Assembly: GCF_008274215.1 (NCBI RefSeq)
Contig: NZ_VTPS01000009.1
Coordinates: 1 to 64,000 of the forward strand
Direction: 5' to 3'
Source of the DNA: Calorimonas adulescens
GTDB lineage: Bacteria; Bacillota; Thermoanaerobacteria; Thermoanaerobacterales; UBA4877
DNA: 64,000 bases
The notes beneath the pieces are model-generated. The model saw only the letters and a list, made by a program, of their open reading frames with translations. It was not told where the DNA came from and ran no database searches. The position numbers were made by a program, and so were the translations under genes. Numbering within the stretch: position 1 is the first letter of the stretch; every line of letters starts with the position of its first letter. Below are positions 44,326-59,591 of this stretch, piece after piece.

Positions 44326-44362
44326 AGACTTTTTAGGCGTTGCCGAAAGTCTTATTTTTTTT
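44326..44362 (+). terminator. Terminator after tRNA-Pro, overlapping the integrase end
   Basis: AGACTTT pairs with AAAGTCT, with a GGC/GCC hairpin inside, followed by TTATTTTTTTT. It stops the tRNA transcript before it runs antisense into the integrase gene, whose last codons overlap the T-run. Confidence 0.8.
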
Positions 44363-45557
44363 GCTCACCGTTGCCCAACCGTTGCCTAATTTCACATAAA
44401 GCCGCCTCAAATGATCTGATAGCTTCTTTCTTTTTCCCGGGTATTAAATGACTATAAAGGTCATATGTGTATGATGGTTTTTCATGACCTAGAATTTCCT
44501 GAACAGTATTTACATCAACGCCGTTAGCAAGTAGTATCGAAGCAAACGTATGCCTCATTCCATGCAATGTAACATCTAAACCAAGGTTTTCAGCAACGAT
44601 AGAAAATAATCTTGAAGTATAATCTAAGCTGAGGGGCTCCCCATTCTTTTTACAAAACACAAGATTATTGTTGTGATAGTCATCACCAAGTAAAACCATA
44701 TAATTCATTTGCGTTTTTCTATGTTTTCGCAGAAATTTAGCAAATTCTTTTGTCATTGGAATATATCGTATGCCTTTCTCTGTTTTTGTTCCTTTCTTCT
44801 GCTGTCCTTTCCCCTTGAATTTTGCATAGCTTTCATTAACATAAATAATCTCTTTTTCAAAATCCAACTTGTCCCATGTTAAGGCAAGCAATTCACCTCT
44901 TCGCATACCTGTATGAGCGGCACCCATGAAAACTGCTGCATAATCCTCATTATATTTTTTCGCTTCTTCAATAAAAAAGTCTATTTCCCATGGTTTAAGA
45001 AATTTAATATTTCTCTTTTCTGGTCTTGGGACAGTAATTTCATTGCACGGATTAAATTTTATTATTTTTAAAACTTTGACGGCAAATTCTAATGCGGAAT
45101 TGAGCAATGTGTAATGATATTCCAAGCTCCTATTCCCTAGAGGTTTTCTTTTATCATTCCCTTTTTTCTTTTTTGCTAGATACTCCTTTATATGATAAGG
45201 CTTTAATTGTTGTATTGGAATGGATGAAAAGTATGGAAGCAGGTGAGCATCAATAACATACCTATAATTTTCATAAGTCGTTTGCTCTAGCTCAACTTCG
45301 CAATACATTTCATACCACTTTTCGATTATATCTCCAACAGTTAATTCCGAAGGCTCGACATATACTCCGTTCTCCAGTTCTTGTATCATCTTATACATTT
45401 CTTTTTCAGCAAGCTGTTTATTTTTCCTGTCGTTTTTATCCAGCCTTACTGATTTTACAATTCTCTTACGTTCACCTGTTACTGGATCCCGACCCATATC
45501 GATGACAATGGTCCAGGATGATTTATAGCGTTTTTCAAGGTGCCCTGTGATCTGCAT
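44352..45557 (-). CDS. int: Phage tyrosine integrase
   Basis: This site-specific recombinase should integrate and excise the prophage at tRNA-Pro. The N-terminal arm-binding domain (RYKSSWTIVIDMGRDPVTGERKR) and SAM-like core-binding domain (about residues 70-165) are followed by the catalytic domain with R219 (TGMRRGE), H332-x2-R335 (HGMR), H358 and nucleophile Y368 (LYSHL). It is 401 residues and intact. It resembles Tn916-like phage integrases. It reads leftward toward the tRNA, 57 bases away, the classic arrangement. AAGGAG precedes the ATG. Confidence 0.95.
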   Translation of the reverse strand: MQITGHLEKRYKSSWTIVIDMGRDPVTGERKRIVKSVRLDKNDRKNKQLAEKEMYKMIQELENGVYVEPSELTVGDIIEKWYEMYCEVELEQTTYENYRYVIDAHLLPYFSSIPIQQLKPYHIKEYLAKKKKGNDKRKPLGNRSLEYHYTLLNSALEFAVKVLKIIKFNPCNEITVPRPEKRNIKFLKPWEIDFFIEEAKKYNEDYAAVFMGAAHTGMRRGELLALTWDKLDFEKEIIYVNESYAKFKGKGQQKKGTKTEKGIRYIPMTKEFAKFLRKHRKTQMNYMVLLGDDYHNNNLVFCKKNGEPLSLDYTSRLFSIVAENLGLDVTLHGMRHTFASILLANGVDVNTVQEILGHEKPSYTYDLYSHLIPGKKKEAIRSFEAALCEIRQRLGNGEQKK

Positions 45558-45726: not shown

Positions 45727-46930
45727 ATGACAAGACCAAAACAATTATCCTTTGCAGACATTTATTCCGACTGTAATAGTATTTTTGAAGATGATAAATA
45801 TCACTTCCTTTCACTTCTTGAAGAAAACATTGATCTTGAAGAACTTATTCCGTCTTCCTTCTATGATCACTTTTATTCCTCTATTGGTAGAAATCGTGTA
45901 TATCCTTTATCCGGTTTCCTTTGGGCTTTGCTCATTCAGCGGATTTTCTCTATTCCTACTGACAGTCTTCTTTTGATTTTTCTCCAGTACTCACAAGAAA
46001 GCAATGCAGCTTGATGATTCCTATGACCCTTACAAAGCAGCTTATAAATCCATGCCTTCTCATGCGGATTCAAACCGGAACATTAAACAGCTTTATATCA
46101 ATGGACATTTTTGCTATGTTTTCAAGTTCGGTATGATTACCAATGGTCTTGGTATTGTCCGTGATATCTCATTCTATAATAAAGATTTCCTGGATGCGCA
46201 CCCGGACATTGTTGTGGAAAAGAAATCGGATTCTCCCGAAGAAGATAAGTCCCTCGGTGATTCCAAAGCTCTTATCCCTGTCCTAAAGGATTTTTTTAAT
46301 AAGCACCCTCTGATAAATCCCAGGACCTTCCTTGGAGATTCTGCTTTTGATGCAGTTAACATCTATAAATCTCTGTTTAGCGAACTGCATTTTGAAAAAG
46401 CATATATCCCTCTTAATTCACGTTCAGGACTTGAAGATCAGGACTACACCATTAACGAAGATGGTATCCCATGTTGCCCTCATGATAAGAATCTTCCTAT
46501 GAAACCGGAGGGCAGCAAATCAAACTTAAGGTGCAATCTTCCGACTTTTAAGTTTGTATGTCCTAAGATGTCCTGGGATAAGTGTGATGACGGCAAATAT
46601 CGTCGCCGTACACACTGTGACAACCCCTGCACTGACTCTGCCTGCGGACGGATGGTATACATTTATCCTGAAAAGGATCTTCGTACTTATCCCGGTACAA
46701 TCCGTGGTACGGAGGAATGGGATGAAACCTACAAAATCCGTTCCGTAGTTGAAAAGTCAATCAACCATTTCAAAGACAGTTTTTGCCTTGCCGGACGCAG
46801 AACCCAGAATGAAAAAACACTGCATGCTGATTTATTATTGGCCGGTATTACCCAGTTAATCACGGTTGTTGTTGCTGACCGTATTCATAAACATGAATAC
46901 ATTCGCAGCCTGAAACCACTTATTGCATGA
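45727..46930 (+). pseudogene. IS1182-family transposase, internally deleted and frameshifted
   Basis: The first 95 codons (45727-46014: MTRPKQLSFADIYSDCN...) encode the N-terminal domain. The reading then shifts to 46004-46930, which encodes the C-terminal DDE region (PSHADSNRNIKQLYINGHFCYVFKFG... to RSLKPLIA). From my knowledge of the family, roughly 100 residues between the halves, including the first catalytic aspartate region, are missing. The join is at YSQES/MQLDDSYDPYKAAYKS. AAAGGAG precedes the ATG. It cannot make an active enzyme. Confidence 0.85.
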
Positions 46931-47516: not shown

Positions 47517-47969
47517 TTATTCTAAAATATTTAATAACCATTTTTTAGGTAGGTATAAAGCTCTTGCTATCTGTTCTATAGTTAAGTCCTCAAAGTCTTT
47601 GTCAAATAAATTAATATTTAGCAATTTTAATGCAAAGTAATTAGCTTGTTTATCTAATTTACCTATATTAATAAGATTTTTATTAAAAGCAGCATTATAA
47701 ATGTCTACATGTATAATAGCATGAGCTAATTCATGCGCAAGTACAAATTTTTCATAATGAATATCTAAATCATTCCTGATAAAAACAATTTCCATACCGT
47801 CATAATTTCTATAATACAAAGCCTCGTTCCCTTGAAATAGGATATTTTCTTTTGGCAGTTTCTTAATAGTTATACATAACTCATCATATAACTCATAAAT
47901 ATTAAGGGTCTTATATAACTCAAACAAACCAGCAATAAAATCATCTATCCATTGGTATTTATTATTCAT
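47517..47969 (-). CDS. ImmA/IrrE-type metallopeptidase, probable anti-repressor
   Basis: The 150-residue protein has the zinc motif HELAHAIIH and a downstream KLDKQANYFALKLL segment that supplies the third ligand, as in ImmA. In ICEBs1 and many phages ImmA cleaves the repressor to release the element. The gene is next to and co-directional with the repressor gene, matching that pairing. The ATG at 47969 has GGAGG 5 bases upstream. The short C-terminus (LPKKWLLNILE) is normal for the family. Confidence 0.85.
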   Translation of the reverse strand: MNNKYQWIDDFIAGLFELYKTLNIYELYDELCITIKKLPKENILFQGNEALYYRNYDGMEIVFIRNDLDIHYEKFVLAHELAHAIIHVDIYNAAFNKNLINIGKLDKQANYFALKLLNINLFDKDFEDLTIEQIARALYLPKKWLLNILE

Positions 47970-48009
47970 AAGTGCCTCCAGCAATTAGATAGGATTTCGT
48001 CAGGTTTGT

Positions 48010-48588
48010 TTATTTCTTATATTTATAACTAATTAATTCTAATTGTCGTAAAAGTTCATTTGCAAAGTCAATTATTTCCTCGTCGCTCATTTTATTGATA
48101 TCAAACCCACCGAATCCCATTATTGAAGGCTGCCCTAAAATGAACCTCATGGCTTCTTGCGGGGTTTTAAATTGTATTTCTTTATCAGTATCCCCATTTA
48201 ATATATCACTTACTTTTATATTGAGAACCTTAGCAATAGAATTTAAAGTTTCAAGACTAGGATTATATCTTCCATTTTCAACATCAGCTAAATATGAACG
48301 AGAAATATTAGCTTTATCTGCCAATTCTTGTTGAGTTAAACCTGCCTGTTTTCTGTATTTTTTAATATTAGCACCTATTTCCACATCTTTTATTTCTTCA
48401 TGCCCTAAAAGATAGTCGGTTGTTACATTAAAATATTCGGCTATTTTCTTTAAAACCGTATAACTTGGATTTCGTGCACCAGTTTCATACATGCCAATCA
48501 TAGAAGTTGTAACTCCTATTATTTTACCGAGTTCCTCTTGTGTCATTTTTCTGCTTAACCTTAATTCTTTTATTTTCTTTCCTACCAT
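48010..48588 (-). CDS. Phage repressor with two tandem XRE helix-turn-helix domains
   Basis: Residues about 5-60 (KIKELRLSRKMTQEELGKIIGV...) and about 73-130 (NIKKYRKQAGLTQQELADKANI...) are both complete Cro/cI-type domains. A helical tail (about 140-192) could dimerise or be the ImmA target. Two DNA-binding domains in one repressor are less common than the one-domain form. GGGGGGTG precedes the ATG. The gene reads leftward from the operator region and should repress both promoters there. Confidence 0.88.
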   Translation of the reverse strand: MVGKKIKELRLSRKMTQEELGKIIGVTTSMIGMYETGARNPSYTVLKKIAEYFNVTTDYLLGHEEIKDVEIGANIKKYRKQAGLTQQELADKANISRSYLADVENGRYNPSLETLNSIAKVLNIKVSDILNGDTDKEIQFKTPQEAMRFILGQPSIMGFGGFDINKMSDEEIIDFANELLRQLELISYKYKK

Positions 48589-48609
48589 ATCTTTAACACC
48601 CCCCTAACA

Positions 48610-48755
48610 ACTATTAGTTATATTATAACTAATAGTTATAATTAAATCAATCCAACTGATAGTGATAATTCAAGAAATAAAGAGCAAATAAAAGAAAATA
48701 GCTGATAAATTCTCACTATCAGTTGTAATTACTCTTGATAGATACAACTAATAGT
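48610..48755. promoter_or_regulatory. Repressor/Cro operator region, five 9-bp sites
   Basis: The palindrome ACTNNTAGT (or its variants) occurs at 48610-48618, 48628-48636, 48655-48663, 48715-48723 and 48747-48755. A sixth copy is at 48985-48993 inside the end of the Cro-like gene. The first two lie in a perfect 14-bp inverted repeat (48609-48637). Sites sit within the spacers of both divergent promoters, so binding would block both. Confidence 0.8.
48622..48650 (-). promoter_or_regulatory. Leftward repressor promoter
   Basis: On the minus strand TTGATT (48650-48645), 17 bases, perfect TATAAT (48627-48622). One operator fills part of the spacer (48628-48636) and another covers the start region (48610-48618), so the repressor should control its own synthesis. 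Confidence 0.75.
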
Positions 48756-48763
48756 GTTATCAT
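48735..48763 (+). promoter_or_regulatory. Rightward early (lytic) promoter
   Basis: TTGATA (48735-48740), 17 bases, TATCAT (48758-48763), with an operator copy at 48747-48755 between them. It should drive the Cro-like gene and the early operon. Confidence 0.75.
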
Positions 48764-48786
48764 TATAACTAAAAGGAGGGAAAATA

Positions 48787-49011
48787 ATGGCAAACCATAT
48801 AACTAAGTTAAGGGAAAATGCAGGTTTTAAAACAGCTAAAATCGCGGCTGAAGCACTTGGCATCAGCAGTGGTATGATGTATCAAATGGAAGGCGGTCAT
48901 AAAAAACCAAGTCCAGAGCTTGCTATAAAAATGTCTAGTATATTTAAATGTACTCTGGAAGATATTTTTTTACCGTTTAATACAACTAATAGTTATAAAA
49001 AGATGGCTTGA
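48787..49011 (+). CDS. Cro-like XRE family DNA-binding protein
   Basis: This 74-residue protein is essentially one helix-turn-helix domain (KLRENAGFKTAKIAAEALGISSGMMYQMEGGHKKPSPELAIKMSSIF). As the first rightward gene, opposite the repressor and behind an operator-controlled promoter, it is the probable Cro equivalent. AAAGGAGGG precedes the ATG. The last codons (NTTNSY) are encoded by the sixth operator copy. Confidence 0.85.
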   Translation: MANHITKLRENAGFKTAKIAAEALGISSGMMYQMEGGHKKPSPELAIKMSSIFKCTLEDIFLPFNTTNSYKKMA

Positions 49012-50393: not shown

Positions 50394-50816
50394 ATGGATA
50401 TCAATATTAAAATCGATGCGCCCGAATTAGCGGGTGCAATCCAATCCCTGGCTGCAGCTTTGATTAAACTGTCCAAACCAGTATCTGAATCCATTCCAAC
50501 ACCTGAACCGGAACCGACACCAATAGCACAATTTAAACCAGCACCAACAGCTGTCCCGACTACCCCTATATCAACATCACAACCGATATCAGAACCGGTA
50601 CCAATACCCGCACCCCCGACAATTGTTCCAACTACACCGCAGACATACACTATGGAACAACTGGCGGTAGCAGCTACACAGTTAGTCGATGCTGGTCGCA
50701 GAATGGAACTCGTGGCTTTGTTGAACAGCTTCGGTGTACAAGCACTCACCGCATTGCCCAAAGAACAATACGGCGCATTCGCTACAAAACTTCGAGAGAT
50801 GGGGGCCAAAATATGA
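50394..50816 (+). CDS. Phage protein with proline-rich linker, unknown
   Basis: A short N-terminal helix (about residues 1-30) is joined by a Pro/Thr/Ile linker (about 34-85) to a C-terminal helical domain (TMEQLAVAATQLVDAGRRMELVALLNSFGVQALTALPKEQY). Such a C-terminal domain is often encoded before DUF2800 genes in Firmicutes phages; its function is not known. AGAGGAGAGG precedes the ATG. It overlaps the next gene by four bases. Confidence 0.7.
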   Translation: MDINIKIDAPELAGAIQSLAAALIKLSKPVSESIPTPEPEPTPIAQFKPAPTAVPTTPISTSQPISEPVPIPAPPTIVPTTPQTYTMEQLAVAATQLVDAGRRMELVALLNSFGVQALTALPKEQYGAFATKLREMGAKI

Positions 50817-51985
50817 AAAATATCGAGGCCCAGGTCCCGGTAGCCGAACATGCTTTATTATCGGCCTCAGGGGCGCATAAGTGGCTGGTATGCACACCAT
50901 CCGCAAGACTGGAAGAGACTTTTCCGGAGACCACAAGCGAATATGCGGAAGAAGGGAGATTAGCCCATCAAATTGCAGAGTTAAAACTTCGGAAGCACTT
51001 TATTGAACCCATGAAAGCTAAGACTTTTAACAACAAACTTAAAGAACTTAAAGAAAATCCTTTATTCCAGGAAGAAATGTTAAATCACGTGGATGAATAC
51101 TTTAATTATGTTTACAAAATAGCACTTAATTATCCTTCAACACCCTATGTAACTATCGAAAAAAAGCTGGATTACAGCGCTTATGTTCCTGAAGGTTTCG
51201 GCACCGGAGACTGCATCATAATTGGTGGCGACACCCTTCACATAATTGATTTTAAATACGGAAAGGGGGTGCCTGTGTCAGCAGAAGACAATCCGCAAAT
51301 GAAACTTTACGCACTGGGGGCTTTATCAGCCTATTCAATCCTGTATTCAATCAAAAAAGTGAAGATGTCTATAGTGCAACCCAGATTAGACAGCATTTCA
51401 GAATGGGAAATATCAGCAGCAGATTTGTTAGCCTGGGGTGAAAGTATCAAACCTATCGCACAAAAAGCCTTTAATGGCGAGGGAGATTATGTTCCCGGAG
51501 AACATTGTCGGTTTTGCCGGGCAAAAGCCCTATGCCGGGCCCGGGCAGAATTCAATATGAGTCTTGAGAGCTATAATATGATGAAGCCCCCAATAATCTC
51601 GAATCAGGAAGTGGGAGAAATCCTGATAAAAGCTCAGGACCTGGTTAAGTGGGTTAAGGACCTTGAGGAATATGCTTTGTCAGAATGCTTGGCCGGCAAT
51701 GATATACCCGGATGGAAAGCGATTGAAGGCCGAAGCGTAAGACAATTTACCGACCAAGAAGCAGCTTTTAAGGTACTCATGGCAAACGGCATAGATGAAG
51801 CCATGCTGTATGAACGTAAACCGTTAACCTTAGCAAGCGTTGAAAAGTTACTGGGGAAAGCAAAATTCAAAGAACTATTAGACGCTTATGTAGAAACGCC
51901 GCCCGGAAAACCGACTTTAGTACCGGAAAGCGACAAACGAGAACCGATAAGACGCATAAGCGCAGAAGAAGATTTTAAAAGCTAA
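50813..51985 (+). CDS. DUF2800 nuclease, PD-(D/E)XK type with cysteine cluster
   Basis: The 390-residue protein contains a RecB-like nuclease core: an N-terminal acid/histidine segment (EEGRLAHQIAELKL), GTGDCIIIGGDTLHIIDFKYGKG with catalytic D and K, and QMKLYALGAL. A cysteine near residue 25 and a C-x2-C-x5-C cluster (HCRFCRAKALC) after the core match the iron-sulfur arrangement in AddB and Cas4 nucleases; cluster binding here is inference. It is probably the phage recombination or replication nuclease, coupled to DUF2815 and the polymerase. Confidence 0.85.
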   Translation: MKNIEAQVPVAEHALLSASGAHKWLVCTPSARLEETFPETTSEYAEEGRLAHQIAELKLRKHFIEPMKAKTFNNKLKELKENPLFQEEMLNHVDEYFNYVYKIALNYPSTPYVTIEKKLDYSAYVPEGFGTGDCIIIGGDTLHIIDFKYGKGVPVSAEDNPQMKLYALGALSAYSILYSIKKVKMSIVQPRLDSISEWEISAADLLAWGESIKPIAQKAFNGEGDYVPGEHCRFCRAKALCRARAEFNMSLESYNMMKPPIISNQEVGEILIKAQDLVKWVKDLEEYALSECLAGNDIPGWKAIEGRSVRQFTDQEAAFKVLMANGIDEAMLYERKPLTLASVEKLLGKAKFKELLDAYVETPPGKPTLVPESDKREPIRRISAEEDFKS

Positions 51986-52014
51986 AAAATTATATGTAAA
52001 GGGGAAAAGTGAAA

Positions 52015-52713
52015 ATGAGCAAAAATAATCCACAGCATGTAGTAACCGGCAAAGTGAGACTTAGTTATGTGCATCTGTTTACACCTTATGCGAGTAAACC
52101 AGGACAGGAACCAAAATATAGCGTTACGATTTTACTCCCGAAATCCGATATCGCGGCAAAACAGCGAATTGATGCAGCCATCCAGGCAGCCATTCAGACT
52201 GGGATATCCTCCAAATGGAATGGTGTCAGACCCCCACAAATAGCAATACCCATCCATGACGGCGACGGGGTCCGGCCTTCTGACGGAATGCCTTTTGGCG
52301 AAGAATGCAAAGGGCACTGGGTATTTACGGCATCCTCCAAACAACCTCCACAGATAGTGGATTTACAGCTTAACCCGATTATTAATCAAAGTGAAATCTA
52401 TTCCGGCATTTATGCTAGAGTATCAATTCAATTCTTCCCTTACTCCAACAGCGGTAAAAAAGGTATCGGATGCGGCCTGGGCAATGTTCAGAAACTCGAA
52501 GACGGAGAACCGTTAGGTGGGCGCACCACCGTCGCTGACGATTTTGGCGACAGCACCGACATATACACCACGCAACAGATACCTGCTTATACTCAACCAA
52601 TACAACAAAATCAGCCGGTATATTCACAATTAAATACACAGCCAATTCCTTCGGCACCGCAAATTGACCCAATAACTGGTATGCCGATTACCGGCCGAGT
52701 GATGGGCATATGA
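52015..52713 (+). CDS. DUF2815 phage protein, probable single-stranded DNA-binding protein
   Basis: The N-terminal VVTGKVRLSYVHLFTPYASKPGQEPKYSVTILLPKSD is the DUF2815 hallmark, a T7 gp2.5-like OB-fold family. The C-terminus is a Gln/Pro/Thr-rich flexible tail (about residues 180-232). It sits between the nuclease and the polymerase, where a single-stranded DNA-binding protein would serve both. The ATG at 52015 gives the standard N-terminus; the GTG at 52009 is an alternative. Confidence 0.85.
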   Translation: MSKNNPQHVVTGKVRLSYVHLFTPYASKPGQEPKYSVTILLPKSDIAAKQRIDAAIQAAIQTGISSKWNGVRPPQIAIPIHDGDGVRPSDGMPFGEECKGHWVFTASSKQPPQIVDLQLNPIINQSEIYSGIYARVSIQFFPYSNSGKKGIGCGLGNVQKLEDGEPLGGRTTVADDFGDSTDIYTTQQIPAYTQPIQQNQPVYSQLNTQPIPSAPQIDPITGMPITGRVMGI

Positions 52714-54698
52714 AACATCTATCAATCGACTTGGAAACCTTTAGCAGTATAGATATCAATAAAGCGGGACTGTACCGATACGTACAGTCCCCCGATTTCC
52801 AAATATTGCTTTTTGCATTTGCCTTCGATGATGACCCTGTACAGGTAGTTGATCTGGCTCAGGGTGAAAAAATACCCCAACATGTCATATCCGCTCTGTG
52901 GGACCCAAATATTATCAAGCATGCCTATAATGCATCCTTTGAATGGTACTGCCTAAGCAAATTTTTCAGTATATCAAACCCGGAAGCATGGCTCCCCCAA
53001 TGGCAGGATACCATGCTGCACGGCTTATATTGCGGTTACACAGCAGGCCTGGCAGCCACAGGCGCCGCACTAGGGCTGCCTGAAGATAAAAAGAAAATGA
53101 GCATCGGCCAGGCGCTTATCCGGACTTTTTGCGTGCCCTGCAAGCCCACAAAAAGCAACGGATACCGGACAAGGACGTTACCACACCATGAACCTGAAAA
53201 GTGGAAATTATTCAAGCAGTATAACGTCCAGGATGTAGTGACTGAGCGGGAAATAGAACATAGGCTGTCTGCCTTTCCAGTGCCGGAGCAGGAACAAAAA
53301 CTCTGGCGGCTGGATCAGCAGATAAATAATTATGGGGTTATGGTGGACCAGGATCTAATTGAAGGGGCTTTATATTGCAGTGAAAAAATTACAGATGAAT
53401 TAATGAATGAGGCAATAAAGATTTCGGGCCTGGACAATCCCAAAAGTGTCCAGCAATTATCACAATGGCTCGAAGAGGAAACCGAAGAAGAAATACCGAA
53501 CCTGCAAAAAGATACTGTCAAAAATCTCATTAAAACTACCGAAGATGAAAAAGTTAAACGCATGTTAGAGATCCGCCAGGAGCTTTCCAAAACATCCGTG
53601 AAAAAATATACAGCCATGAAAGAAGCTGTATGCGACGACGGACGTATCCGAGGGCTATTACAATTTTACGGAGCCAACCGTACTGGCCGATGGGCAGGCC
53701 GTCTCGTCCAGGTTCAGAACCTTCCTCGAAATTATCTTGAAACATTATCCCACGCCAGGGATTGTGTTAAATACAAAAAAGTAGACGCCCTGAAAATTGT
53801 ATATGGCAGTATTCCGGATACCCTCTCGCAGCTCATTCGAACCGCTTTTATACCATCTCCTGGCCACATACTCATCGATGCGGATTTTAGTGCAATAGAA
53901 GCCCGGGTAGTCGCCTGGCTTGCCGGTGAACAATGGCGGCTTGATGTGTTCAACACCCATGGCAAAATCTATGAAGCCTCAGCATCCCAAATGTTCGGAG
54001 TTCCGATAGAAAAAATAGTAAAAGGTAACCCGGAATATGTCTTAAGGCAAAAAGGCAAAGTTGCGGAATTGGCTTTGGGTTATCAGGGTTCCGTAGGTGC
54101 CCTTATCAAGATGGGTGCACTGAATATGGGACTAACCGAAGAAGAACTACCGGAGATTGTGCAACGGTGGAGATCCTCAAACAAAAGGATTGTGGACCTC
54201 TGGTATGCAGTAGAAAATGCCGCTCTCAGTGTAATAAGGACTGGTCAACCTGTAGGTATAAAAAATCTGCTATTTGCCCGAGAAGGAAACTATAACACTG
54301 GCCAAGATTTCTTAACAATTACTTTGCCCAGTGGCCGAAAGTTATTTTATGTAAAACCGTTCATCGCACAAAACGACCGGGGCCAGGATGCGCTATATTA
54401 CCACGGCATGAATCAAAATTCAAAAAAATGGGAAACAGTGTCTACTTACGGGGGTAAATTGGTAGAAAATATAACCCAAGCAGTTGCTCGGGATTGTCTG
54501 GCTGAAAGCCTAATGAGGCTTACTGCTGCCGGATACAAGATTGTTTTTCACGTACATGATGAAGTCGTGCTGGATGTGCCGGAAGAAAAGGCAGACCTTA
54601 ACCAGGTATGTGAGATAATGGGGCAACCAATACCCTGGGCGCCAGGATTACCGCTTAAGGCTGATGGATTTATAACCAAATATTTCAGGAAAGATTAA
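52710..54698 (+). CDS. Phage family A DNA polymerase
   Basis: This 662-residue replicative polymerase has an N-terminal 3'-5' exonuclease domain (D7 and E9 in SIDLETFS) and a polymerase domain. Motif A is DADFSAIEARV with D390, motif B is in RQKGKVAELALGYQGS and motif C is HVHDEVVLD with D617. There is no 5' nuclease domain, as in T7-like enzymes. The ATG overlaps the DUF2815 stop (ATGA). It should copy the phage genome with the primase-helicase at 55104. Confidence 0.95.
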   Translation: MKHLSIDLETFSSIDINKAGLYRYVQSPDFQILLFAFAFDDDPVQVVDLAQGEKIPQHVISALWDPNIIKHAYNASFEWYCLSKFFSISNPEAWLPQWQDTMLHGLYCGYTAGLAATGAALGLPEDKKKMSIGQALIRTFCVPCKPTKSNGYRTRTLPHHEPEKWKLFKQYNVQDVVTEREIEHRLSAFPVPEQEQKLWRLDQQINNYGVMVDQDLIEGALYCSEKITDELMNEAIKISGLDNPKSVQQLSQWLEEETEEEIPNLQKDTVKNLIKTTEDEKVKRMLEIRQELSKTSVKKYTAMKEAVCDDGRIRGLLQFYGANRTGRWAGRLVQVQNLPRNYLETLSHARDCVKYKKVDALKIVYGSIPDTLSQLIRTAFIPSPGHILIDADFSAIEARVVAWLAGEQWRLDVFNTHGKIYEASASQMFGVPIEKIVKGNPEYVLRQKGKVAELALGYQGSVGALIKMGALNMGLTEEELPEIVQRWRSSNKRIVDLWYAVENAALSVIRTGQPVGIKNLLFAREGNYNTGQDFLTITLPSGRKLFYVKPFIAQNDRGQDALYYHGMNQNSKKWETVSTYGGKLVENITQAVARDCLAESLMRLTAAGYKIVFHVHDEVVLDVPEEKADLNQVCEIMGQPIPWAPGLPLKADGFITKYFRKD

Positions 54699-55103: not shown

Positions 55104-57506
55104 ATGCTCATTAACAACCGAAAAATAACGATATCCGCTGCTGGAAACCGCAGAGCAACACGATGGCCAGCACAAACATTATATTGGTCGGAATTCGTGG
55201 AACGCTTAAAAACGCCCGTAAGAGGCACTGAAACTTTAACCGAATACTTACGTTTACCCAAAAGCCGTCAAGACGATTTAAAAGATGTGGGCGGCTTTGT
55301 AGGAGGCCTTTTAAAAGACGACAGAAGGAAAGCAAGCAACGTAATCGGAAGGGATATTATAACACTTGACCTTGACAACATACCTGCGGGCGACACTCAG
55401 GACGTATTGCGCCGAATTGAAGCCTTGGGATGTGCTTATGTCGTATATTCCACACGTAAACATGAGGAAGCAAAGCCACGACTTAGGGTAATCATACCGG
55501 GCAACCGGACAATTACAGCCGATGAATACGAACCGCTAGCCCGGAAGTTGGCAAGCATCATTGGAATAGAATTATGTGATCCTTCTACCTTTGAGGCTTC
55601 CAGGCTCATGTATTGGCCTTCATGCTGCTCTGACAGCCAATACGTCTATCAATATGGAGACAAACCTTTCCTGGATGTGGACGGGTTACTGGCAATGTAT
55701 AAAGACTGGCGCAATGTGGCAGAATGGCCTGAAATACCAGGAGTACAGCAGACACATGCAAAGCTCGCCGCAAAACAGGGAGATCCTACGGCCAAAGCAG
55801 GTATCGTCGGCGCCTTCTGCAAAGTATATGACATCTATAAGGCTATGGATACTTTTTTACCCGGCGTTTATGCCCCATGCGACGGTAAACCGGACCGATA
55901 TACTTATACCGGTGGATCCACAACTGGCGGTGCAATTGTATATGATAACGGAACATTCCTTTATTCGCATCATGCCACAGATCCAGCGGGAGGGCAGCTG
56001 GTAAATGCTTTTGACCTCGTGAGATTGCATAAGTTTGGTGAACTGGACGATGAGGCAAAGCCCGATACCCCTACAAATAAATTGCCATCTTATGCGGCAA
56101 TGTGTGAGCTGGCGGTATCGGATGCCCAGGTGGTAGCATTACTCAATCAAGAGCGATACGAAAAAGCCACTCAAGATTTTGCTGTAAGCACTGTAAGTCA
56201 AGATGATAATACCAATTGGATAAGTAAGTTGCAGGTCAGCACCACCACCGGTATGCCGGCAAAGACAACGGACAATATCCTGATTATACTGGAAAACGAT
56301 CCACTTTTGAAAGGAAAGCTTGCTTTTGATGAATTCGCCAACAGAGGTCTGGTGCTGGGCCCCCTACCCTGGGACCCTCGCACAGAGCGCCGACAATGGA
56401 CAGATGTCGATGACGCCGGTCTCAGACATTACCTTGAACATACTTATAAAATCACTGGTAAAGACCGAATATTTGACGCTATCGCTTTATGTGCTCACAA
56501 ACATCTGATAAATGACGTAAAAGACTACTTAACCAGCTTAGAATGGGACGGCATCAAACGTCTTGATACCCTCCTTATAGACTACCTGGGGGCCGAGGAT
56601 ACGCCATACACCAGAGCGGTCATACGAAAGTCTCTTACGGCAGCTGTGGCCAGGGTAATGACACCTGGAGTAAAATATGACTTTGTACCGATTATAGCTG
56701 GGCCGCAGGGCATAGGTAAAAGCACTTTTTTAAGAATCCTTGGCCGGCAATGGTTTTCTGACAGCCTAACAACTTTTGAAGGCAAAGAAGCATCTGAAAT
56801 GGTCCAGGGTGTATGGATCAATGAGCTCGGGGAACTAAACGGCCTTAATCGTTCAGAAATCAATGCCGTAAAGCAATTTATAAGCAGGACGGACGATATA
56901 TATCGAGAACCATATGGTCGGCGCACAGGCAGATACCCCAGGCGATGCGTATTTTTCGGGACTACGAATGACGCTGAATTTTTAAGAGACAAGACGGGCA
57001 ACCGGCGCTTTTGGCCGGTAGATGTGGGCATTCAGCCTGTAAAAAAAGACGTTTTTAATGATTTAGAAAATGAAGTAGACCAAATATGGGCTGAAGCATT
57101 CGTTCACTGGCAGCTGGGGGAACCGTTATATTTAACAGGTGAAATAGCAGCTGAAGCAAAGAGAGAGCAGGAAGCACATGAGGAAAGCAATGCAAAAGAA
57201 GGCATTATTCAGGAATTTGTTGAACGTCGGGTGCCACTGGATTGGGAAAAAAGGACCTTGAATGAAAGGCGATTATATTGGGCCGGGGAGTTTGGCCGTG
57301 ACACCGGCGAAACCATGGAACGGGACCGGATATGCGCCGCAGAAATATGGTGCGAATGCCTGGGCGGGGATATCAAGTATATGAAAAGGTCCGATGTGTT
57401 GGAAATAAATAGCATTTTGGCAAACATCCCTGGCTGGAGAAGAAGTAAAGGTGCCTTTCGTTTTGGGTGTTATGGAAAGCAAAGAGGGTTTATAAAAATC
57501 AAATAA
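55104..57506 (+). CDS. VapE/VirE-type phage primase-helicase
   Basis: This is an 800-residue two-part replication protein. The N-terminal half has a primase-polymerase-like core (RDIITLDLDNIPAGD near residue 85 with paired aspartates and KPRLRVIIPG). The C-terminal half is a virulence-associated E helicase domain with Walker A GPQGIGKST at 533-541, Walker B-like GVWINELGEL and arginine-rich YREPYGRRTGRYPRR. It probably primes and unwinds at the origin. The iteron-like cluster directly downstream is a candidate for the site it acts on. Confidence 0.88.
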   Translation: MLINNRKITISAAGNRRATRWPAQTLYWSEFVERLKTPVRGTETLTEYLRLPKSRQDDLKDVGGFVGGLLKDDRRKASNVIGRDIITLDLDNIPAGDTQDVLRRIEALGCAYVVYSTRKHEEAKPRLRVIIPGNRTITADEYEPLARKLASIIGIELCDPSTFEASRLMYWPSCCSDSQYVYQYGDKPFLDVDGLLAMYKDWRNVAEWPEIPGVQQTHAKLAAKQGDPTAKAGIVGAFCKVYDIYKAMDTFLPGVYAPCDGKPDRYTYTGGSTTGGAIVYDNGTFLYSHHATDPAGGQLVNAFDLVRLHKFGELDDEAKPDTPTNKLPSYAAMCELAVSDAQVVALLNQERYEKATQDFAVSTVSQDDNTNWISKLQVSTTTGMPAKTTDNILIILENDPLLKGKLAFDEFANRGLVLGPLPWDPRTERRQWTDVDDAGLRHYLEHTYKITGKDRIFDAIALCAHKHLINDVKDYLTSLEWDGIKRLDTLLIDYLGAEDTPYTRAVIRKSLTAAVARVMTPGVKYDFVPIIAGPQGIGKSTFLRILGRQWFSDSLTTFEGKEASEMVQGVWINELGELNGLNRSEINAVKQFISRTDDIYREPYGRRTGRYPRRCVFFGTTNDAEFLRDKTGNRRFWPVDVGIQPVKKDVFNDLENEVDQIWAEAFVHWQLGEPLYLTGEIAAEAKREQEAHEESNAKEGIIQEFVERRVPLDWEKRTLNERRLYWAGEFGRDTGETMERDRICAAEIWCECLGGDIKYMKRSDVLEINSILANIPGWRRSKGAFRFGCYGKQRGFIKIK

Positions 57507-57553
57507 TCCGTTAATAGTCAAAATATGGTAATTGAATATAAAATATTGTCTCT

Positions 57554-57897
57554 GTTAACATCGTCAACATCGTCAACATTCAATGTTGACGGCTGAAACC
57601 CGCATAAAATCTAATACTATAGCTTTTGTCTACATTGTCTACATTCTTTTCTATAGTAAGTATAAAAAGAGAGGGTATAAAGGGTATATAGCACTTAGTA
57701 CGCCTGTACAGCCTGTTTTATATATTTTATATATAGAAAAAAATGCTAACTTTGTTGACAAAACCCTTCAAATGCAAGTAGGACAAGGCTTTGACCCGTC
57801 AACATTCTATGTTGACAATGTTGACAGGTTCCAGTGACAAAAGCTGTTAAGTGTAGGTAGGGCAAGGCTTTAAGCTGTCAACATTGTCTGTCAACAT
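57554..57897. repeat. Iteron-like cluster of GTCAACAT repeats, candidate phage origin
   Basis: Twelve copies or close variants of GTCAACAT lie in the 415-bp gene-free gap. Direct copies are at 57554, 57563, 57572 (9-bp steps), 57628, 57637 (9 bp, variant GTCTACAT), 57798, 57877 and 57890. Inverted copies are at 57583, 57752, 57809 and 57818. A very AT-rich stretch (about 57645-57750) lies in the middle. Two longer similar blocks (TAGG-CAAGGCTTT...GTCAACATT) start near 57778 and 57855. Repeats flanking a melting region beside replication genes suggest an origin. Confidence 0.65.
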
Positions 57898-57921
57898 TCT
57901 ATTGCGAAGGAATGAAATACC

Positions 57922-58212
57922 ATGAGAGAAAAAGATATCGAACAATATTTACGAAATAAGGTAAGAGAGTTCGGAGGCAGAGCATATAAATTTATCTCTC
58001 CAGGCAGTGCAGGGGTGCCTGACAGACTGGTGCTGTTTCCTGGAGGTCGTATGGCCTTTGTGGAATTGAAAGCGCCGGGAGAAAAATCCACACCTTTACA
58101 AAAGGCGCAGCAGGAAAAAATCCGAGCTTTGGGGTTTCCAGTATATGTGATTGACAGCAAAGAAAAAGTAGATGCTTTTATTTATCAGCATGCGGGAGTG
58201 GTTGTGAAGTGA
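57922..58212 (+). CDS. VRR-NUC domain nuclease
   Basis: This 96-residue protein is a stand-alone VRR-NUC (PD-(D/E)XK) domain: EKDIEQYLRNKV at the N-terminus, AGVPDRLVLFPGGRMAFVELKAPGE with catalytic D, E and K, and a C-terminal strand. Phage VRR-NUC proteins are thought to resolve or nick branched DNA. It is always near a SNF2-like helicase in such modules, as here, with a four-base overlap. Confidence 0.9.
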   Translation: MREKDIEQYLRNKVREFGGRAYKFISPGSAGVPDRLVLFPGGRMAFVELKAPGEKSTPLQKAQQEKIRALGFPVYVIDSKEKVDAFIYQHAGVVVK

Positions 58213-59591
58213 AATTTACGCCATATGCTTATCAAAAATATTGCATAAACAGATTAATAGTTGATCCGGTTTTAGGTCTTTATCTTGACATGGGTTTAGG
58301 CAAGACTGTTATAACAATGACTGCAATAAATGACTTAAAATACAATCGATTTGCCATAAATAAGGCCCTGGTTATAGCCCCTAAAAAAGTTGCAGAAGGA
58401 ACATGGAGCAAGGAAGCTGCGAAATGGGACCACCTGTATTTATTGAGAATATCGGTAGTAATGGGAACTGTAAAACAAAGAGTAAGAGCGCTTAATACTC
58501 CTGCCGACATTTACATCATTAACCGTGAAAACACACAATGGCTTGTAGATTATTATCGAAATAACTGGCCCTTTGATATGGTGGTAATCGACGAATCCAG
58601 TAGCTTTAAAAACCACCAGGTTAAAAGATTTAAAGCACTGACCTGGGTGCGCAACAAGATAAGCAGAATTGTGGAATTAACCGGCACACCAGCACCAAAC
58701 GGATTATTGGACCTGTGGGCGCAAATATATTTACTGGATGAAGGTAAAAGGCTAGGTAAAAAATTTACACACTATCGTGAAAGATATTTCGACCCGGACC
58801 GGCGGGACCGGGATCATGTTTTCAGCTATGCGCCAAAGCCAGGAGCTGAAGAATCTATTTGTGAACTTTTGAGCGATATATGTGTAAGCATGAAAGCAGA
58901 AGATTATTTAGAACTGCCGGATTGCATTACAGTCAATGTGCCGGTAGTTCTGGATACTAAAGCTAAAGCAGCGTATGAAAAGTTGGAAAGGGAAATGCTT
59001 CTTGAAATTGATGAAAGCATGATTGATGCTGGCAGTGCAGCAGTATTAACAAATAAACTTTTGCAGCTTTGTAATGGCGCTATATATGATGAAAACTGTA
59101 AGCCTGTTGAAATACACAACTGTAAAATTGAAGCTTTTTTGGAACTTATAGAAGCTTTGAACGGTCAGTCAGTGTTGGTTTTTTACAACTTTCAACATGA
59201 TCTGCAACGAATTAAAAAAGCTCTAGCAGGATCCGGTCTTAGAGTGAGAGAGCTTAAAGGTTCGCAAGATGAAGATGATTGGAACAATAGAAAAATCGAT
59301 ATCCTATTGGCGCATCCGGCCAGTTGCGCCTATGGTCTAAATCTTCAACAAGGTGGCCATCACATTATATGGTTCGGTCTTAACTGGAGCTTAGAGTTAT
59401 ATCAACAAGCTAATAAACGATTACATCGGCAGGGGCAAACGGAAAAGGTTATCATACATCACCTGGTTGTTGAAGGAGGGGTTGATGAAGATGTCATGGC
59501 AGCGCTGGAGGATAAAAGCGCTACCCAGGATCGGTTGATGGAGGCTTTGAAAGCAAGAATTGAAAAATATCAAAAGGAGATGTCTAAATGA
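58209..59591 (+). CDS. SNF2-type DEAD-box DNA helicase/translocase
   Basis: This 460-residue superfamily 2 ATPase has GLGKT (29-33) as Walker A and VVIDESSSFKN as the DExx motif. ELTGTPAPNGLLDLWAQ is motif III, and the C-terminal half ends with SLELYQQANKRLHRQGQTEKVIIHHLV as motif VI. It acts on double-stranded DNA with the VRR-NUC partner. The GTG start overlaps the stop of the nuclease gene. Confidence 0.92.
   Translation: MKFTPYAYQKYCINRLIVDPVLGLYLDMGLGKTVITMTAINDLKYNRFAINKALVIAPKKVAEGTWSKEAAKWDHLYLLRISVVMGTVKQRVRALNTPADIYIINRENTQWLVDYYRNNWPFDMVVIDESSSFKNHQVKRFKALTWVRNKISRIVELTGTPAPNGLLDLWAQIYLLDEGKRLGKKFTHYRERYFDPDRRDRDHVFSYAPKPGAEESICELLSDICVSMKAEDYLELPDCITVNVPVVLDTKAKAAYEKLEREMLLEIDESMIDAGSAAVLTNKLLQLCNGAIYDENCKPVEIHNCKIEAFLELIEALNGQSVLVFYNFQHDLQRIKKALAGSGLRVRELKGSQDEDDWNNRKIDILLAHPASCAYGLNLQQGGHHIIWFGLNWSLELYQQANKRLHRQGQTEKVIIHHLVVEGGVDEDVMAALEDKSATQDRLMEALKARIEKYQKEMSK

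Follow-up and report, generated by a model that had tools for sequence, protein, structure and literature searches.

In the PICI/SaPI satellites, the pri-rep-ori module places the origin directly after the initiator helicase gene, and the origin consists of two iteron sets round an AT-rich region (PMC6092414). The Rep proteins of SaPIbov1 and SaPI5 are of the DUF927 and Primase_Cterm/D5 types, and the SCCmec helicase Cch2 binds direct repeats just 3' of its own gene via its C-terminal domain (PMC7581432). In the PLE satellites of Vibrio cholerae, the DNA-binding domain of RepA covaries with the iterons and is exchanged with them as a module; Odn, a nuclease of anti-PLE phages, may be a selective force behind diversification (PMC8263062). 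In phage P4, the alpha protein by itself acts as primase and helicase and binds the origin, reading short repeats through a C-terminal winged helix.

We analysed a stretch of 64,000 nucleotides of Calorimonas adulescens (positions 1 to 64,000 of contig NZ_VTPS01000009.1; hereafter, the window), in which a cluster of short repeats follows the gene of a VapE-type protein (Table 1). As in PICI/SaPI, the putative origin lies directly after the initiator helicase gene, with two repeat sets round an AT-rich region. However, PICI/SaPI are satellites, whereas the VapE module belongs to tailed (pro)phages and also comprises genes for PolA, SSB, VRR-NUC and SNF2; the protein is of VapE type rather than of the DUF927 or Primase_Cterm/D5 types of the SaPIbov1 and SaPI5 Reps; and the repeat word is hypervariable, with covariation down to single residues. 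With Cch2, the proposed VapE system shares C-terminal recognition of repeats beside its own gene, binding by VapE being inferred, but Cch2 belongs to the D5/Primase_Cterm helicase family, has three AAGTG iterons, and word diversity is unreported for it. As in the PLE RepA–origin pair, an initiator DNA-binding domain covaries with iterons; there, in contrast, it is the RepA_N N-terminal domain, the iterons are of ~30 bp and fall into two groups only, and there is no single-residue code.

Table 1. Coordinates of the VapE module and of the repeat cluster (positions in the window)
Feature	Position	Strand	Remarks
DUF2800 / PD-(D/E)XK exonuclease gene	50813..51985	+	Pfam and PHROG matches
Enc34/Gp2.5-type ssDNA-binding protein gene	52009..52713	+	upstream of vapE
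Phage DNA polymerase A (family A) gene	52710..54698	+	upstream of vapE
vapE, 800 aa	55104..57506	+	AEP-type primase-like N-terminus, VapE AAA+ helicase domain, C-terminal winged helix; proposed initiator
vapE C-terminal winged-helix domain, codons 697-800	57192..57503	+	AF2 model of the domain alone, pLDDT 86; H-H-H-strand-strand
Codon K792	57477..57479	+	main specificity column, best of 800
Codon R794	57483..57485	+	AC is followed by A where the residue is R, by T or C where it is K
Gene-free gap, 415 bp	57507-57921		vapE stop codon ends at 57506, VRR-NUC start at 57922
Exact GTCAACAT sites, n=8	57563+, 57572+, 57583-, 57798+, 57809-, 57818-, 57877+, 57890+	both	
One-mismatch sites, n=4	57554 GTTAACAT; 57628 and 57637 GTCTACAT; 57752- GTCAACAA		
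Left iteron group	57554..57590	both	+ at 57554, 57563, 57572; - at 57583
Central tandem pair GTCTACATTGTCTACAT	57628..57644	+	9-nt period; counterpart with 8- or 9-nt period in most relatives
AT-rich core	57645..57745		candidate unwinding element; 72% AT, 90% AT in final 31 nt
GCCTGTACAGCCT doublet	57702..57714	+	GCCT at 9-nt spacing; word-independent conserved element
Right iteron group	57752..57897	both	- at 57752, + at 57798, - at 57809, - at 57818, + at 57877, + at 57890
VRR-NUC nuclease gene	57922..58212	+	next in module; Pfam VRR_NUC E 1.9e-5, phrog_93
SNF2-type helicase gene	58209..59591	+	downstream of VRR-NUC

The element is a tailed prophage, as seen from its integrase and repressor genes and its GpA-type large terminase. 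Since the window has PolA, SSB and the GpA large terminase of a tailed phage, we did not class it as a PICI, and the module is thus not one carried by a phage-inducible satellite. A DDE transposase gene (46004-46930), apparently an insertion sequence in the prophage, lies between the integrase gene (44352-45557, minus strand) and the repressor region. The repressor-like protein (48010-48588, minus strand) contains two HTH_3 stretches, and its gene precedes one for an IrrE-like peptidase (47517-47984, minus strand); TATAACT occurs six times at about 48401-48900, near the repressor and Cro-like genes, possibly as repressor operators.

The initial annotation, made from the sequence alone, had described twelve copies or near copies of an 8-base word, in both orientations and partly in 9-bp steps, in a gene-free 415-bp gap between the primase-helicase and VRR-NUC genes, a very AT-rich core between two groups of copies, two larger blocks similar to each other, and the absence of a classical initiator gene. 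These observations held, the last of them among the ORFs scanned. The eight exact and four one-mismatch GTCAACAT sites span 57554-57897, and those at 57554/57563/57572, 57628/57637 and 57809/57818 are spaced exactly 9 bp apart. Only ~0.3 sites with up to one mismatch are expected in 344 bp, given the window-wide rate after shuffling (57 per 64 kb). Eight exact sites fall in the gap, against at most one in any other 415-bp stretch of the window, and TGTTGAC, with nine copies in the gap, is the window's most repeated 7-mer. Within the right group, two 62-nt blocks (57756-57817 and 57835-57896) are 76% identical. The AT-rich core is flanked by left and right iteron sets, as in the map of the family described below; the doublet of GCCT at 57702-57714 had been overlooked. 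No match to a DnaA-, DnaD- or Rep-type initiator was found among the scanned ORFs (some small ORFs were outside the scan).

We analysed the domains of VapE. The VapE-like AAA+ domain is present (Pfam VapE-like_dom, PF05272, E 7e-83), residues 5-798 match phrog_256 (DNA helicase; E 0, 1108 bits), and the primase-like N-terminus matches phrog_9765 (DNA primase). The AF2 model of the full protein (mean pLDDT 87) predicts a C-terminal winged helix, in which the wing hairpin corresponds to codons 778-798. Residues 368-797, comprising the helicase and the winged helix, match PriRep1 (7pds, 'Similar to D. nodosus vapE'), which was solved with dsDNA, both by fold (Foldseek E 8.5e-39) and by sequence profile (E 2.5e-120). 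When the C-terminal domain was searched alone, 7pds was the sole confident fold match (E 2.7e-6). By model and fold match, then, the window VapE has a helicase homologous to that of PriRep1 and a C-terminal winged helix like that of PriRep1.

Searching viral contigs and bacterial genomes with VapE yielded 219 loci. The median length of the gap between vapE and VRR-NUC was 286 bp (209 loci where both genes could be placed). In 164 of 207 gaps one 6-mer was enriched at p<=0.01 relative to dinucleotide shuffles, while 43 had no enriched word at this threshold. Observed and expected counts in the related gaps were 777 and 259 for GTNNAC, and 635 and 265 for GTNAC; control patterns were not enriched in these gaps. 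The word itself varies between relatives, with 35 classes in the dereplicated training set and 48 in the pooled set, of the form NNN(N)AC (words were called automatically, and long gaps and weak arrays were left out). Even next to a 98%-identical VapE, GTCAAC is replaced by GTTAAC. A search for the repeat near vapE of relatives, as the initial annotation had proposed, thus finds the cluster again but mostly not the literal GTCAACAT, because the word and its reader change together; GTCAACAT as a conserved feature was rejected. The annotation had also held that absence of the repeat from close relatives would refute an origin, which is misleading, as GTCAACAT is missing even beside the 98%-identical VapE.

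What is kept is the place and the layout. Iterons immediately 3' of the proposed initiator gene are present in the window and in relatives, with a median of nine copies per gap over ~250 bp, and most gaps follow one fixed map of orientations. Forward copies occupy the first 80 bp and reverse ones lie at about 60-110; a tandem pair in forward orientation (8- or 9-nt period) comes next, at ~120-160, and beyond it are an AT-rich stretch and a last set of reverse copies towards the end of the gap. The cluster, the conservation of its place and layout, and the diversity of the word are thus directly observed. The cluster recurs at the same place in most relatives, which supports the theta-type origin layout that the initial annotation had proposed, origin activity itself being inferred. 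The doublet of GCCT at 9-nt spacing (consensus ACGCCTAAtaCGCCTAAT), ~74 nt past the tandem pair, was found in 60 of 129 related gaps, where shuffled sequence gives 0.4. As it is kept whatever the iteron word, something constant may read it.

Among named phages, repeat clusters occupy the same gap in S. aureus phi12, phiSa2wa_st80, Enterococcus phiFL4A and Listeria LWP01 (L269, L276, L273 and L274), with words that are TGTTGCATCA-like, TGGATAC and TGTCAACA. The clusters of the distant phi12 (TGTTGCATCA-like) and phiFL4A (TGGATAC) fall outside the NNN(N)AC dictionary. In three loci (L060, L061 and L280, the last being Bacteroides phage BF503P2) vapE is followed directly by VRR-NUC, and the fetched stretch shows no repeat cluster; their origin, if alike, must therefore be elsewhere. 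The winged helix is present in all three, and the VapE tails of L060 and L061 are identical. Five genomes carry two VapE prophages each (L396-L400 with L304, L296, L301, L305 and L302), and the words differ in 5/5. Five pairs have no power to show word avoidance, because ~92% of random pairs differ anyway (669 of 8256 have the same word).

We then tested sliding segments of VapE for association with the word, with a correction for similarity across the whole protein. The best segment, 776-795, is the wing (r 0.181; best outside the C-terminal part, 0.115). The tests covered VapE, PolA and VRR-NUC, the SSB and DUF2800 proteins being left out; segments of PolA and VRR-NUC showed no association with the word (maximum 0.065 and 0.031, respectively, versus 0.16-0.18 for the wing at the same loci). 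By single columns, 792 reached a partial r of 0.436 (z 10.3), followed by two others of the wing at 0.174 and 0.144, and was again top of the 800 columns in pooled disjoint nearest pairs (p 8e-7). A tree-based parsimony count of co-changes placed 784, 782, 786, 792, 783, 785 and 776 in the top ten, most of which lies in the wing. Column 792 was seventh by this count, so the wing region is firmer than the single residue.

Residue 792 is V, P or A with GTAAC, L with GTTAC, K with GGAAC, mostly A with CTAAC and Y with GAAAC; it is mostly K or R with GTCAAC, L or M with GTATAC, and W with TGGAC and GTGAC. No clean residue could be assigned to GTCTAC (K in 5 of 9), GTAAAC or GTTGAC. Residue 794 follows the base after AC by the rule given in Table 1 in 145 of 152 pooled loci (p 1.5e-7 in disjoint nearest pairs), and in 41 of the 44 closest pairs differing in that base both members fit.

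Predictions were recorded before further loci were fetched, and loci with VapE at least 95% identical to the training set were removed, leaving 52. The residue-based predictions were right for 21 of 26 scorable loci; residue frequencies alone would give 5.1, and none of 10000 permutations exceeded 14. A further candidate rule, linking the base before AC to Pro784 or to a wing shorter by two residues, was clear in training (21 of 40 loci with base T had the Pro pattern, 11 of 15 with base G the short wing) and weak in the held-out set (4 of 15 and 1 of 4, respectively), and was dropped. The covariation of the word with the wing of the VapE winged helix is thus established. That the C-terminal domain reads the iterons, as the initial annotation had surmised of VapE as a whole, is supported by this covariation and by the predictions on new loci and is the likely explanation, though in the absence of binding data it remains an inference.

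Natural switches of the word show the same region changing. From the window to locus L001, VapE differs at 20 of 800 residues, five of them in the last 22 (R779K, A784T, F785Y, K792H and K798R). In the gap, 10 of 12 sites carry a C-to-T change (as read on the word strand) at position 3 of the word, while word positions 1, 2 and 5-8 are unchanged (0/72) against 34/273 changes outside the sites. Another locus (L293), in a genome of another family, has the same GTTAAC gap and the same 20 VapE differences. Across 21 disjoint close word-switch pairs, identity is 93% over the VapE body and 69% over the last 30 residues, as against 90% and 88% for 12 pairs that share a word. At the DNA level, identity in pairs of the L129/L258 type is 90-95% until about 120 nt before the vapE stop, drops to 44-63% in a stretch made up of the final 90 nt of the gene and the beginning of the gap, and is back at 95% in VRR-NUC; same-word control pairs have no such drop at the vapE end or in the gap. 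The divergence in word-switch pairs is therefore concentrated in the last ~30 vapE codons and the gap. It is possible that the block is exchanged, or that it evolves rapidly and jointly; the data do not separate the two.

It could be argued that the repeats, though bound by VapE, mark an operator or a partition/incompatibility site, replication starting elsewhere. Binding and origin function are indeed separate claims, the covariation backs binding specificity only, and a cluster directly upstream of VRR-NUC and SNF2 is in a plausible operator position. However, two repeat groups round an AT-rich core, 3' of a replicative helicase gene, are the layout of the functionally proven PICI/SaPI origins (PMC6092414), a median of nine sites over ~250 bp is many for an operator, and, apart from the cluster, the scan turned up only one repetitive stretch, a shorter one of six copies near the repressor gene at ~48.4-48.9 kb. 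We consider this explanation unlikely.

Still less likely is another reader (a host factor, the phage SSB, VRR-NUC or a small regulator), with VapE correlating by linkage alone. The 3' end of vapE adjoins the gap, so some correlation may come from linkage. But VRR-NUC, equally close on the other side, has no association (maximum r 0.031), and the signal comes from a small number of identified wing residues that also predicted the held-out loci, rather than from a general linkage gradient. Finally, the repeats might be a neutral low-complexity expansion or a structured RNA: slippage can make repeats, and there was one sub-threshold Rfam match. This was to MIR821, a plant miRNA family, at 30 bits against a gathering threshold of 249, and was rejected. 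The enrichment over dinucleotide shuffles in 164 of 207 gaps, the fixed layout and the concerted change at a single word position all but rule out such an origin of the repeats.

We thus favour the view that the gap is a theta-type prophage origin, with a layout like that of the PICI/SaPI rep-ori, bound by VapE itself. We consider this likely, binding, hexamer loading, melting and origin activity all being inferred. In the proposed mechanism, VapE, with its primase-like and AAA+ helicase parts, would be its own origin-binding initiator: the C-terminal winged helix would bind the ~9 short repeats either side of the AT-rich core, hexamers would assemble on them, the core would melt, and VapE would unwind and prime for the phage polymerase and SSB. 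Residues 792 and 794 of the wing, together with 782-786, would fix the sequence specificity. Since the specificity codons are at the 3' end of vapE and adjoin the iterons, reader and sites can change or be swapped as one short block. A bolder reading is that VapE phages hold dozens of mutually orthogonal replicons, specified by wing residues 782-786, 792 and 794, and that the last ~30 vapE codons move or diverge with the origin as a lock-and-key cassette, driven by interference from co-resident phages, satellites or origin-directed nucleases. We offer this only tentatively, and on present evidence would lean slightly against it.

Three features appear to be new: the setting of VapE in tailed phages, how many words there are, and covariation down to single residues of the wing. 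No description of this origin or code was found in the full-text literature searched, which left out most subscription papers, and prior knowledge cannot be excluded. VapE, named for its association with virulence, would gain a specific job, that of reading and opening the phage origin. The family is large (1048 phage records in one collection by protein search), and not all members need share the origin. In many phages, those of the gut and of the S. aureus phi12 type among them, an unannotated gap would become an origin that can be predicted. The pairs of wing and word amount to a testable protein–DNA recognition code, in which the specificity of a winged helix appears to lie in the wing and not in the recognition helix, and they would provide a natural set of origins, perhaps mutually incompatible or orthogonal.
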